Origin: a bacterium
GTDB taxonomy: Bacteria; Joyebacterota; Joyebacteria; Joyebacterales; Joyebacteraceae
DNA: 34,694 nt
Direction: 5' to 3'
Assembly: GCA_025782345.1 (NCBI GenBank)
Contig: JALGZG010000107.1
Span: forward strand, 1 to 34,694
Shown here: piece after piece, positions 4,882-32,659 of the stretch
Position numbering within the stretch: position 1 is the first letter of the stretch
How the letters are laid out: each line of letters opens with the position of its first letter
Position numbers and translations under genes: made by a program
The notes under the pieces: model-generated
What the model was told of the DNA's origin: nothing
The model's database searches: none
Seen by the model: only the letters and a program-made list of their open reading frames with translations

Positions 4882-6591
4882 CTACTCGTTGTCAGCGGCG
4901 CGTTCTATCCACGCGCCTTCATACCCGAGAGCCTTAATCGTTTCAAGATCTTCGCGGGCCGCCGACAGTATCGGATACCCGCCGGACACGACGACCCGGA
5001 ACCACATCCCTCTGTTCTCCACCTCCTTCGCCACGACCTCCGCACCGACACCGCGTTGGATCAGCCGTTCGGCCTCGAAGACGGCCGCTCCTTCGTGACG
5101 GTGCGAGCTGATCATGATCCGATAGCGACCGCCGGGTCCGCTGATAGCGGTGCCCCCATCGGAGCTCTCGCGCACCGCGCGTACGTCTGACTCGTCGAGG
5201 TCAGCCGAGCCGATCTCCTCGCCCGCCGCCTCCCGCTCTCCCTCAGAAGCGATCTCCCCGGTCGATGGGTCTTCCCCACCTGCGGCCCTGTCTTCGCCGT
5301 CCGTGATGAGCTCCGTCGTTCCCACCTCGCCCGCCTCGCCACGAGGTGCCGAGCTGTCTTCCACCGGCTCCCAGTCCCCACCTTCTACCACACGCTCGTG
5401 TTCTCTCCGGCTGAGGTTGTCGAGCCACAAGTTGGACCTGCGCTCTCCGTCGACGAACCACCACAGCATCACCGCGATGGCGACGATCACGAGCATGGCC
5501 ACCGTGGCTGCCAGGTGGTTCGGAGTCATCCGTCGGCGACGCACCGAGGCTCCGAGCACGACCGGCTTGTGCTTTGCCCCACCGGTGTCGTCGCGACGCG
5601 CCTCGATCTCGGGGCGCCCACGTTCCGCACGCCCCGTCCTCGATCCCTGCGGCGCCGCTTCCAACCTCGCGGACACAACTAGACCTTCGCGCATCGGGAC
5701 CACGAGTGGGGGACGCTCCGCCAGCTCACCAGGCTCTTCGACATCCGCCAGCTCGCCAGGCTGTTCGGCATCCGCTACCTCACCAGCCTCTTCGACATCC
5801 GCCAGCTCGCCAGGCTCTTCGACATCCGCCACCTCGCCAGGCTCTTCCACATCCGCCGCCTCGTCGGGCTCTTCGACATCCGCCACCTCGCCAGGCTCTT
5901 CGGCATCCGCCGCGTCGCTCTGCTCGAGGACCAGGATCCCTGTCGTCCTCACATCACCGGTGCACGAGGCCAGCGACACTATGTCGGCTCCGGTCCCGGC
6001 GACGCAGACGACGGCGTCGAGAGCACCCAGTGTCTTCGTCACGTGGACCGGAGGGACAAGCACGAGCACCAGCGCATCCTCCGCGAGTGTCCTGAGCATC
6101 TTCGAGAATGCGTCCGACTCGAAGACGTTGTCGACCGAGAGCGGATGCGAACCTGCCGTGACCACGCTGACGCCCGGCGCGAGAGTGCGCCTGACAATGG
6201 CCGCGCGTGACACCCCGAACAGCACCGCGTCCACCAATCCCTCATCCCGGTCTTCGTCGAGCGCCTTTCCGAGGACGGGACTCTCCACGGTCGCGTCAAC
6301 AAGGACCACCGTTCTTCCTCTGTCACCGAGCCAAGCCGCGGCGTCCGCCGCGAGCCCGGCGGCTTCCGACATGTCCGTTCCGGAGATCCCGACCACACCC
6401 TTCACTACATCCAGTAACCGCTCGAGATCCGGCATCCAGCCAGCCAGCGCATCCCCGATCACCGGGCGGACCAGCACCGGGTCCCCGACCCGACCGGTCC
6501 GCTCCAGAGCCACACCGCCGGCGACCACGCCGGACTCGCGCAGACGCTCGAGTTCCTCACTGGGCGTTCCGGACAAGGCTCTGAACTCCAC
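4882..6591 (-). CDS. Pseudo-ATPase (CpsD/ParA-like) - repeat - TM - SPOR domain protein
   Basis: I do not recognise a named family for this 569-aa protein. Residues about 60-220 align by eye with CpsD/BY-kinase-type P-loop domains: the segment RTVVLVDA (Walker A'-like), then GVSVVTAGSHP and ALVLVLVPP. But the Walker A site reads GISGTDMSEAAG and lacks the GKS/T, so nucleotide binding is doubtful. Residues 228-290 are seven 9-residue acidic repeats (ADVEEPGEV type). One membrane helix lies at about 360-381, followed by an acidic linker and a C-terminal SPOR domain (about 488-566), a fold that binds denuded septal peptidoglycan. By membrane topology the N-terminal domain should be cytoplasmic and SPOR periplasmic. 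GTG is chosen as start because GAGGAGG sits 7 nt before it and overlaps the selA end; an upstream in-frame extension would run inside selA. A role at the division site is inferred from SPOR and from neighbours smc and ftsY. Confidence 0.85.
   Translation of the reverse strand: MEFRALSGTPSEELERLRESGVVAGGVALERTGRVGDPVLVRPVIGDALAGWMPDLERLLDVVKGVVGISGTDMSEAAGLAADAAAWLGDRGRTVVLVDATVESPVLGKALDEDRDEGLVDAVLFGVSRAAIVRRTLAPGVSVVTAGSHPLSVDNVFESDAFSKMLRTLAEDALVLVLVPPVHVTKTLGALDAVVCVAGTGADIVSLASCTGDVRTTGILVLEQSDAADAEEPGEVADVEEPDEAADVEEPGEVADVEEPGELADVEEAGEVADAEQPGELADVEEPGELAERPPLVVPMREGLVVSARLEAAPQGSRTGRAERGRPEIEARRDDTGGAKHKPVVLGASVRRRRMTPNHLAATVAMLVIVAIAVMLWWFVDGERRSNLWLDNLSRREHERVVEGGDWEPVEDSSAPRGEAGEVGTTELITDGEDRAAGGEDPSTGEIASEGEREAAGEEIGSADLDESDVRAVRESSDGGTAISGPGGRYRIMISSHRHEGAAVFEAERLIQRGVGAEVVAKEVENRGMWFRVVVSGGYPILSAAREDLETIKALGYEGAWIERAADNE
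5722..5910 (-). repeat. 27-bp coding minisatellite, seven copies
   Basis: Seven head-to-tail 27-bp units keep the reading frame and encode variants of ADVEEPGEV (the last position alternates V, L or A; single changes give PDEA, EAGEV, AEQPGEL). An eighth partial unit (AERPP) ends the run. Units differ at few bases, mostly conservative, so the array looks recently expanded or homogenised. It forms a flexible acidic linker between the pseudo-ATPase domain and the membrane helix. Confidence 0.95.
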
Positions 6592-19270: not shown

Positions 19271-19344
19271 TGGCTGGGGCGGGAGGATTCGAACCTCCGA
19301 TGCGGGATCCAAAGACCCGTGTCTTGCCACTTGACGACGCCCCA
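19271..19344 (-). tRNA. tRNA-Gln (anticodon UUG)
   Basis: 74-nt cloverleaf on the minus strand: acceptor TGGGGCG with CGCCCCA, D arm GTC-AAGTGGCAA-GAC, anticodon loop CTTTGGA (anticodon TTG), T arm GGAGG-TTCGAAT-CCTCC, discriminator G and an encoded CCA. Pair 31-39 is a T-T mismatch. It lies in the same direction between spoVG and prs, so it is probably excised from a polycistronic message. Its 5' end touches the last unit of a 25-bp tandem repeat. Confidence 0.97.
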
Positions 19345-19419
19345 GCGACTACTTCACTAGTCACAGAATGCGACTACTTCACTAGTCACAGAATGCGACT
19401 ACTTCACTAGTCACAGAAT
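19345..19419 (-). repeat. Three exact 25-bp tandem repeats spanning the spoVG stop and tRNA-Gln 5' flank
   Basis: Units at 19419-19395, 19394-19370 and 19369-19345 are identical. Each reads (minus strand) ATTCTGTGACTAGTGA then AGTAGTCGC. The first unit contains the last codons and TAG stop of spoVG; the last abuts the first base of tRNA-Gln. Every unit carries an inverted repeat GACTA-N6-TAGTC and several stop triplets. It looks like a tandem duplication of the spoVG 3' end. Confidence 0.97.
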
Positions 19420-30270: not shown

Positions 30271-30840
30271 TCACTCTCTCGACCCGCTGTCCAGGGGAAT
30301 CGCCTCCACCAACTCGTGTATCGCACCTCCGGGCCGAAGCGTGCTCCGCATCACCCGGGTATCCTTCACCTCCACCCTCTCCTTCGGGGCAACGAGTTCG
30401 TCCAGTATCTCCTGAACGCTCTCAGCACGGGGATCTCGTATCCTCGCCAGTGTCACGTGGGGATGGAACCTGCGCTTCTCCCGAGGGAAACCCAGCTCCG
30501 CGAGCTCGCTCTCCAGTGCCTTCTGAAGCGCGAAGAGTTCGTCGACGGGCTCGACTCCAACCCACAGCACCTTCGGCCGCCGCCCAGAGGGAAACGCGCC
30601 CAGCGAGCGCGTCTCGAAACCAAACGAAGACACGCGGCTCGAGGCGCGCGCGACAGCGGCGACGACCTCGGGCAGTTCGGTCTCCTCGACGTCTCCCAGG
30701 AACTTCAGTGTCAGATGGAGCGCAGGGCGCCTGGCCCAGCTGGCCCTCACCCCCCGCAACCTCAGCTCCTCTGCCAGGGCGAGTATGCCCTCTTTGAGGC
30801 CGTCGGACAACTCCAAAGCGATGAAGATCCGTGCGCTCAA
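30271..30840 (-). CDS. thpR: RNA 2',3'-cyclic phosphodiesterase (2H family)
   Basis: 189 aa. Two HxT motifs define the 2H active site: HLTL at residues 42-45 and HVTL at 128-131. The N-terminal RIFIALELSDGLKEGI is typical. It opens 2',3'-cyclic phosphates and can ligate tRNA halves in vitro. TTG start overlaps the cinA stop (TTGA), with GAGGAG 5 nt upstream inside cinA, so it is translationally coupled to cinA. A cinA-thpR-recA order is widespread. Confidence 0.94.
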   Translation of the reverse strand: MSARIFIALELSDGLKEGILALAEELRLRGVRASWARRPALHLTLKFLGDVEETELPEVVAAVARASSRVSSFGFETRSLGAFPSGRRPKVLWVGVEPVDELFALQKALESELAELGFPREKRRFHPHVTLARIRDPRAESVQEILDELVAPKERVEVKDTRVMRSTLRPGGAIHELVEAIPLDSGSRE

Positions 30841-32087
30841 CCCGGCTCCTCGATGTTGAGAAGGAAGCGTCTCAGAAGCTCCAGCGCGCCCTGGCAGGCG
30901 GCACGCCGGATGCTGCCCCTGCCCCCTCCCAGTCGCAGCTCACGCACGCGTTCGCCGGCTCCCCCCGCCACCGCGGCAAACACCATGCCGACAGGCTTGG
31001 TCTTCGTGCCTCCACCCGGCCCGGCCACGCCCGTGATTGCTAGCCCGTAGTCGGTGGCGCACTTTTCCCGTACACCCCGTGCCATCATGAGCGCGGTCTC
31101 AGAGGAGACCGCTCCGTGCTTCTTGAGGACGCTGGCCTTGACGCCCAGGAGACGTTTCTTGAGGTCGTCGGAGTAGGCAATGACACCGCCCTTGAAGTAG
31201 TCCGAGCTTCCGGGCACCCGTGTCAGCCGCCACCCGACCCGACCACCGGTGCACGACTCGGCAACCGATAGCGTCGATCCTCCCATCGACAGCAGATACC
31301 CCACGACCTTCTCCAGCGACTCGTCGCCGCGCGCATAGACGTAGGACCCGAGCTTTGCCGCGATCTTCTCCTGAGACTTCTCGGCCGTCTTCGTGGCCTC
31401 GACGGACGTCTGGCCGCGACCGATCACCTTGAGGTCCACGCCCGTTGCGGACGGGAGGTAGACGACGTCGGTCCTCGCCAGCCGCCGCGCGAGCTGCTCG
31501 ATCCGCTCGGCGATCTCGGATTCCGCCAGCCCCGTGGTTCGAATGAGACGCTCCTGCGCCAGCCTCCGAAGCCCCTTCCCCTCTAGAAAGGGAGAGACGA
31601 AACTCTCGAACATCGATCTGAGTTCGACGGGAACGCCCGGCAGAACAAAGAGCAGCGCCTCGCCCTTCTCGAAGAGAAGGCCCGGCGCCGTTCCTCTCTG
31701 GTTCTCTATGGAGCGAGCGCCCTCCGGGAGCATGGCCACAGCGATGTTGATCTCGGGCATGGGGACATCGCGGGCTTCGAAGCGGGCGCGCACTTTCTCG
31801 AGGACGCCCTCGTCCAGGACCAGCTTCCGCCCGAACAGCCTGGCCACGGCCTGCTTGGTGCGGTCATCCGCAGTCACGCCCAGTCCACCGGTCGTGATGA
31901 CCAGGTCGGCCCGCTCGAGGGCACGCGAGGTCGCCTCCTCGATGTCGTCGACGGCGTCGGGCACCGATGAGATGCGCACGACCTCAGCGCCGAGAGACGT
32001 GAGACGCGACCCCAGGTAGACCGCGTTCAGATCGACCTGGCTCCCGTCAAGAAGCTCTCCGCCTATGGTGATTATCTCGGCCTTCAT
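30837..32087 (-). CDS. cinA: CinA: MoCF domain plus nicotinamide-nucleotide amidase
   Basis: 416 aa. The N-terminal MoCF-like domain (AEIITIGGELLDGSQVDLNA, ITTGGLGVTADDRTKQAVA, FVLPGVPVELRSMF) has ADP-ribose pyrophosphatase activity in characterised CinA proteins. The C-terminal PncC domain (STLSVAESCTGGRVGWRLT, YFKGGVIAYSDDLKKRLLGV, ITGVAGPGGGTKTKPVGMVF) deamidates NMN to recycle NAD. The name reflects competence induction in streptococci; nothing here shows competence. The Shine-Dalgarno is weak. It lies between a 26-bp tandem repeat and thpR. Confidence 0.97.
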   Translation of the reverse strand: MKAEIITIGGELLDGSQVDLNAVYLGSRLTSLGAEVVRISSVPDAVDDIEEATSRALERADLVITTGGLGVTADDRTKQAVARLFGRKLVLDEGVLEKVRARFEARDVPMPEINIAVAMLPEGARSIENQRGTAPGLLFEKGEALLFVLPGVPVELRSMFESFVSPFLEGKGLRRLAQERLIRTTGLAESEIAERIEQLARRLARTDVVYLPSATGVDLKVIGRGQTSVEATKTAEKSQEKIAAKLGSYVYARGDESLEKVVGYLLSMGGSTLSVAESCTGGRVGWRLTRVPGSSDYFKGGVIAYSDDLKKRLLGVKASVLKKHGAVSSETALMMARGVREKCATDYGLAITGVAGPGGGTKTKPVGMVFAAVAGGAGERVRELRLGGGRGSIRRAACQGALELLRRFLLNIEEPG

Positions 32088-32103
32088 GCGACCACCGTCA
32101 GGA

Positions 32104-32181
32104 GGGAGTGGACTACTGACCCTGAACCAGGGAGTGGACTACTGACCCTGAACCAGGGAGCGGACTACCAACCCTGAACCA
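32104..32181 (-). repeat. Three 26-bp tandem repeats spanning the pgpA stop codon
   Basis: Units at 32181-32156, 32155-32130 and 32129-32104. The two downstream copies are identical; the copy holding the pgpA end differs at three bases. The minus-strand unit is TGGTTCAGGGTCAGTAGTCC then ACTCCC. In the first unit the frame reads LVQGW-stop (pgpA end); the other two would read LVQGQ-stop. Each junction forms a CCCTG-GTT-CAGGG hairpin. It fills the gap between pgpA and cinA. Confidence 0.96.
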
Positions 32182-32659
32182 GCAGCATGACGCGCAGGAG
32201 TATGTTCGTGTAGATGCCCGCTACGAGGTCGTCCGTCACGATGCCCACGCCGCCGGGTAGAGCCTCCGCCTGTCGCGCCGGGAAGGGCTTCACGATGTCC
32301 AGGGCTCGGAAGAGCACGAACGCCACGGCGAACAGGAGAAGCGACTTGGGCAGCAGGAGAACGGAAACGATGAAGCCGGCGTACTCGTCGATCACGATCC
32401 TCGAGGAGTCGTGCCCGAACTGCCGCTCTGCAAGATCTGCGGCCCAGATCGCCAGCGCGGCGAACGCCAGTGTGGAAAGGAGCATCACCCAGAGACCCAG
32501 GTGCGAGGTTGCCGCAGTTACCTCGGGGACAAAGAACCAGATCAGCACGGCGCAACCCAGCGATCCGACCGTGCCGGGGGCAACGGGCGCGTAGCCCAGG
32601 TAGGCTCCGGTGGCCAGGAACCTGACCACTGGATGCAGTTTCGTGCGGTGTTCTGCCAC
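32165..32659 (-). CDS. pgpA: Phosphatidylglycerophosphatase A
   Basis: 164-aa membrane phosphatase with four helices that converts phosphatidylglycerophosphate to phosphatidylglycerol. The family blocks are GAYLGYAPVAPGTVGSLGCA, IVIDEYAGFIVSVLLLP, RALDIVKPFPARQAEALPGG and VGIVTDDLVAGIYTNI. GTG start with GAGAGGA 9 nt upstream. It follows pgsA by 21 nt, so the two consecutive steps of PG synthesis are co-transcribed. The last five residues (LVQGW) lie in a tandem repeat and may be a recent replacement of the C-terminus. Confidence 0.96.
   Translation of the reverse strand: MAEHRTKLHPVVRFLATGAYLGYAPVAPGTVGSLGCAVLIWFFVPEVTAATSHLGLWVMLLSTLAFAALAIWAADLAERQFGHDSSRIVIDEYAGFIVSVLLLPKSLLLFAVAFVLFRALDIVKPFPARQAEALPGGVGIVTDDLVAGIYTNILLRVMLLVQGW

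Follow-up and report, generated by a model that had tools for sequence, protein, structure and literature searches.

A three-copy tandem repeat across the pgpA stop codon as a probable recent local duplication tolerated at a gene end

In the window (the whole stretch of 34,694 nucleotides analysed), a 26-bp unit stands three times across the end of pgpA, and we consider it very likely that this array arose recently and locally by tandem duplication, as a minisatellite kept where proteins stay intact. The unit has a single-copy ancestry in related species, copy number varies among relatives at several loci, the units of different loci are unrelated, array periods differ between coding and stop-spanning positions, and stop codons are spanned far more often than start codons. 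The conspicuous repeat at this gene end goes back to an ancestor with one copy, and the hairpin of the array and the motif that it shares with a second array are understood as by-products.

Structure of the array at the pgpA end

The preliminary description had reported three copies of a 26-bp unit that begins in the last pgpA codons and repeats the stop codon downstream, and this array is real. TRF places it at 32103-32182 (period 26, 3.1 copies, 94% matches), one base at each end from the 32104-32181 first given, and its score of 139 compares with a maximum of 71 among 100 Markov shuffles of the window. The near-identical head-to-tail copies fall in the size range of minisatellites (~10-100 bp). 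The features of the locus, each followed by its basis where one applies, are:

30837..32087, minus strand: cinA, the next gene, co-directional with pgpA (Pfam PF02464, PF00994, PF18146)
32088..32104, minus strand: remaining ancestral spacer CTCCTGACGGTGGTCGC, upstream of the cinA start (sequence, congener comparison)
32105..32130, minus strand: copy 3, identical to copy 2, untranslated spacer (sequence, TRF, congener comparison)
32120..32132, minus strand: junction hairpin 2, identical in sequence to hairpin 1 (sequence; missing in single-copy relatives)
32131..32156, minus strand: copy 2 (CTGGTTCAGGGTCAGTAGTCCACTCC), untranslated spacer (sequence, TRF, congener comparison)
32146..32158, minus strand: junction hairpin 1, CCCTG-GTT-CAGGG (sequence; missing in single-copy relatives)
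32157..32182, minus strand: copy 1 of the unit, the ancestral copy (sequence; same single copy in G001-G005)
32165-32167, minus strand: pgpA stop TAG, inside copy 1
32165..32659, minus strand: pgpA, phosphatidylglycerophosphatase A (Pfam PF04608, E 4.5e-38; 98% identical protein in G001)

On the minus strand, the sequence of copy 1 is CTGGTTCAGGGTTGG TAG TCCGCTCC; it takes in the pgpA stop together with the five codons before it (L V Q G W) and 8 bases of spacer after it, and it contains the gene end ...CTG GTT CAG GGT TGG TAG. The TAG recurs at 32139-32141 and 32113-32115, in both cases out of the pgpA frame because 26 is not divisible by 3. The first 2 bases of the remaining spacer (CT) match the start of the unit, which gives a trailing match of 2 bp.

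Single-copy ancestry of the unit and origin of the hairpin

The pgpA/cinA junctions of five congeners, G001-G005 (Candidatus Eisenbacteria MAGs where named), were retrieved by protein search. All five carry the 26-bp unit once, including G001 with its 98% identical PgpA, and the pgpA array is therefore a species-specific expansion from one copy to three which, as judged from the sequences, is younger than the split from G001. The single-copy junction in G003 and G005 reads ...CTGCTGGTTCAGGGTTGGTAGTCCACTCC|CTCCTGACGGTGGTCGCATG and leaves a gap of 25 nt between the genes. Copies 2 and 3 have a TG to CA change in common, and both retain an ancestral A that is replaced by G in copy 1; the simplest history thus involves two steps, with the mutation falling between a first and a second duplication. 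Outside the genus, the loci lined up from the family have no array at the pgpA stop, and 80 loci from across many phyla showed no evident array close to the end of pgpA. A role as backup-stop device was considered and rejected: of the two in-frame stops at the ancestral site (TAG, four codons, TGA), the second has been lost, and none was added in the pgpA frame.

The hairpin CCCTG-GTT-CAGGG, described earlier as held within the repeat unit, is present in the array but confined to its two copy junctions, and is not part of the ancestral unit. The sequence CCCTGGTTCAGGG occurs twice in the array, at the junctions only, and zero times in the single-copy site; it is composed of the final bases of one copy and the first bases of the next. 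The hairpin was made by the duplication itself, and its interpretation as an ancestral functional element was rejected in favour of a product of the copy junctions.

The spoVG array and the heptamer GACTACT

A second array of the window spans the stop codon of another gene, 12.7 kb away from that at pgpA:

19345..19419, minus strand: second array, three 25-bp copies over the spoVG stop, its end flush with the tRNA-Gln 5' end

The preliminary description had noted GACTACT on the plus strand of both arrays and proposed that its frequency be compared with chance. The word is present as stated in 3/3 spoVG copies, and in 2/3 pgpA copies (GACTACC in the third), but its significance did not hold up: it is not enriched genome-wide, with 231 occurrences against 355 of the reversed word, and two units of such size and composition have a heptamer in common in 2.6% of shuffles (one strand, before correcting for the post-hoc choice). 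At pgpA, AGTAGTC (plus strand GACTACT) is missing from copy 1 and from all single-copy junctions, where GGTAGTC or GGTAGTT is found, and it arose via the TG to CA change. The single-copy spoVG junctions (G002, G003, G004) have ACAGTC or TCAGTC and are heptamer-free; in multi-copy spoVG genomes, the heptamer is one arm of an inverted repeat beside tRNA-Gln. The heptamer is younger than the pgpA and spoVG loci themselves. Its absence from the ancestral sites, taken together with the lack of enrichment, argues that only coincidence links the two arrays in sequence and that the spoVG array is independent in origin. A shared GACTACT core was rejected on these grounds and on that of chance-level word sharing. 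The equal copy number and near-equal period of the two arrays, previously taken to signal a common class, are coincidental too, because copy number varies by species (at spoVG one in G002, G003 and G004, two in G005, three in G001 and three in the source genome) and the periods of stop-spanning arrays range from 14 to 44 bp.

The inverted repeat at the spoVG stop, GYGACTA-6 nt-TAGTCGC, abuts the tRNA-Gln 5' end with zero gap (19345-19419 and 19271-19344, minus strand). Its two arms still pair in every congener and in array copies that have diverged, in part owing to G-U changes, and it may form a terminal hairpin on the spoVG mRNA after RNase P cutting.

Stop-spanning arrays and copy-number variation across the genome

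Further arrays at stop codons, as anticipated in the preliminary description, were found in a scan of 878 kb of the 2.41-Mb genome (36%, window included) in which genes were called by a simple home-made codon-usage method. The sample is non-random, with many contigs picked via short-word or ABC-transporter matches, and the window, which gave rise to the scan, is part of it. Thirty arrays with a period <=60 lie outside CDS (16 in spacers, 11 stop-spanning, 1 start-spanning, 2 partial), where random placement would make 11% stop-spanning and 9% start-spanning; the stop-to-start ratio is 11:1 (p 0.008), or 9:1 when the window is left out. Ten of the 11 are credible, the weak one being L182 1211-1265 (78% matches). 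They stand at the ends of proS-, hflC-, CBM48-, hutI- and lptB-like genes, of acyltransferase-like, porin-like and THEP1-like NTPase genes, and of spoVG and pgpA, with gene names read from translations and Pfam-checked for spoVG and pgpA only. The expectation of further arrays at gene ends is borne out by these roughly ten credible arrays in the 36% sample, but a repeat class with a common core is not supported: the longest word common to the ten credible units is no longer than in shuffled units.

Inside CDS, 37 of 45 arrays have a period divisible by three, as against 3 of the 11 that span stop codons (Fisher p 0.0009). Both this contrast and the 11:1 asymmetry between stops and starts would be expected if arrays are tolerated where proteins are left intact.

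Copy number was read from match lengths and a collapsed-junction search; for the arrays other than those at pgpA and spoVG, relatives were compared by match coordinates only. Compared with the congeners, lptB is duplicated only in the source genome, whereas hflC is duplicated in all congeners except G004. The hutI array has a different copy number in nearly every genome, and the CBM48-like array of the source genome is longer than its G001 counterpart, with still shorter versions in G003, G002 and G004. The variation at these four loci is ordinary copy-number drift.

Two coding arrays were recorded besides. One, at 5717-5918 of the window, repeats a 27-bp unit 7.5 times in frame within a predicted CDS, with 9 residues per repeat; the other (L007 1-1120, G000 C4) consists of ~9.5 copies of RCC1-like 117-bp coding repeats, with the frame broken mid-array.

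Proposed history of the array

Under the explanation that we favour, a 26-bp segment over the pgpA end would have been duplicated with flanking homology of at most 2 bp, the event at the DNA level being, we infer, slippage or illegitimate joining; trailing matches of 0-2 bp are found at the pgpA, spoVG, proS, lptB and hflC arrays. One copy would then have undergone the TG to CA change and been duplicated again, with three copies as the outcome. Translation of pgpA stops in copy 1 and leaves the protein unaltered, the cinA start and its upstream bases lie past the last copy, and the array would persist because, with PgpA unaltered and the cinA start outside, it is probably near-neutral. Similar duplications occur across the genome; those within genes at frame-shifting periods, or over starts, are usually harmful and would mostly be purged by selection, and those in spacers or spanning stops would be retained, their copy number drifting among species. 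As a stop-spanning duplication leaves the protein unaltered, gene ends should accumulate such duplications.

Regarding repair genes, Ku was found neither in the genus nor in three further genomes of the family that were searched, and NHEJ by Ku as the source of the duplication was rejected on account of its absence from the genus. MutS1 and MutL domains are present in 5/5 congeners, with their genes close together, and were not found in the source draft (G000), which has only MutS2-like pieces at contig ends (C192:5-538, C106:5019-5120). This absence may be an assembly gap, in that one missing contig could explain both in a draft ~91% complete. A loss of mismatch repair is not needed, because same-locus arrays vary in congeners having both genes.

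Alternative explanations

One observation speaks against neutral tolerance alone, which predicts mid-spacer arrays to be at least as frequent as stop-spanning ones: in spacers <=200 bp and at periods >=18, there are nine stop-spanning arrays and a single mid-spacer one, where random placement would give 25% and 45% (small counts). Selection around starts may explain part of this excess. It could otherwise reflect a mutational hotspot at gene ends of the lineage, acting beyond tolerance and tied to the ending of translation or transcription (structure, R-loops, polymerase conflicts), an explanation to which we assign a small probability. It would accord with a share of stop-spanning arrays above random even relative to mid-spacer positions, with a rate of 11 in 878 kb compared with 1 in 520 kb from three further genera of the family (p 0.03; small numbers), and with the lack of any comparable stop-spanning array in 300 kb of E. 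coli. Yet the stop-spanning units show no significant gain in structure over matched stop-spanning segments (KS p 0.11 and 0.21), for which reason structure-driven slippage at all loci was rejected, and the units have no sequence in common; moreover, the counts are small, the gene calls home-made, and selective depletion near starts may distort the comparison. The mechanism acting at gene ends that the preliminary description envisaged keeps this small probability but is not required, since selection alone predicts that stop-spanning duplications survive. Were the hotspot real, the genus would possess a fast-evolving set of stop-spanning repeats; should full annotation confirm that stop-spanning arrays outnumber mid-spacer ones, this would be a sign, open to testing, that mutation is biased towards gene ends.

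A regulatory role of the repeats or their junction hairpins, in the stability of the pgpA mRNA or in the coupling of pgpA and cinA, is distinctly improbable. The gap between the two genes has grown from the ancestral 25 nt to 77 nt in the three-copy genome, which could weaken coupling, and shuffled versions fold somewhat less well than the transcript (z -1.9); however, the array is missing from all five sister species, the hairpins are by-products of the junctions, no intrinsic terminator (G+C-rich stem, then T run) is found in 31950-32350, and the loss of the ancestral in-frame TGA speaks against a backup stop. No Rfam family or promoter pattern was found at the pgpA array. At positions 173-292 of the window (minus strand) there is an FMN riboswitch (Rfam RF00050, 109 bits).

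Insertion at gene ends by a mobile, dispersed family of repeats resembling MIRU or REP/BIME elements can be practically discounted: the position at an intercistronic junction and the presence of several arrays per genome would suit it, but the unit is local ancestral sequence native to the site, its 18-base core with 2 mismatches is found nowhere else in the genome and the units of separate loci are unrelated, by which evidence this reading is already refuted.

Comparison with known systems

A literature search of limited wording, which is not proof of absence, found no paper devoted to stop-spanning arrays. The pgpA array resembles MIRUs (PMC12548453, PMC2734929) in consisting of tandem repeats between two co-directional genes and overlapping gene boundaries. 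MIRUs are a single dispersed, apparently mobile family whose ORF is coupled to the gene that follows, whereas the units here are local, unrelated and not dispersed; no one family extends over many loci, and the repeated unit is the native pgpA end as opposed to a foreign element bringing such an ORF. REP/BIME elements are dispersed palindromic gene-end units, whereas the palindrome at pgpA exists only at copy junctions and has no dispersed copies. With the Beggiatoaceae TAACTGA repeats (PMC4679880), the arrays have in common that short direct intergenic repeats occur at many loci of one genome, but there one heptamer is common genome-wide, and here GACTACT is not enriched.

The closest analogies are with bacterial minisatellites and VNTR loci. 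In the survey of prokaryotic satellites by Subirana and Messeguer (2019, PMC6749651), species are described whose many arrays are unique and mutually unrelated, and coding arrays have periods divisible by three. Many of the present arrays span a stop codon, a phrase that does not occur in the text of the survey; they are otherwise alike in having short unrelated units scattered in the genome and in-gene periods divisible by three. As in VNTR loci, copy number differs between close relatives (three against one at pgpA; one, two or three at spoVG), here between species and not strains.
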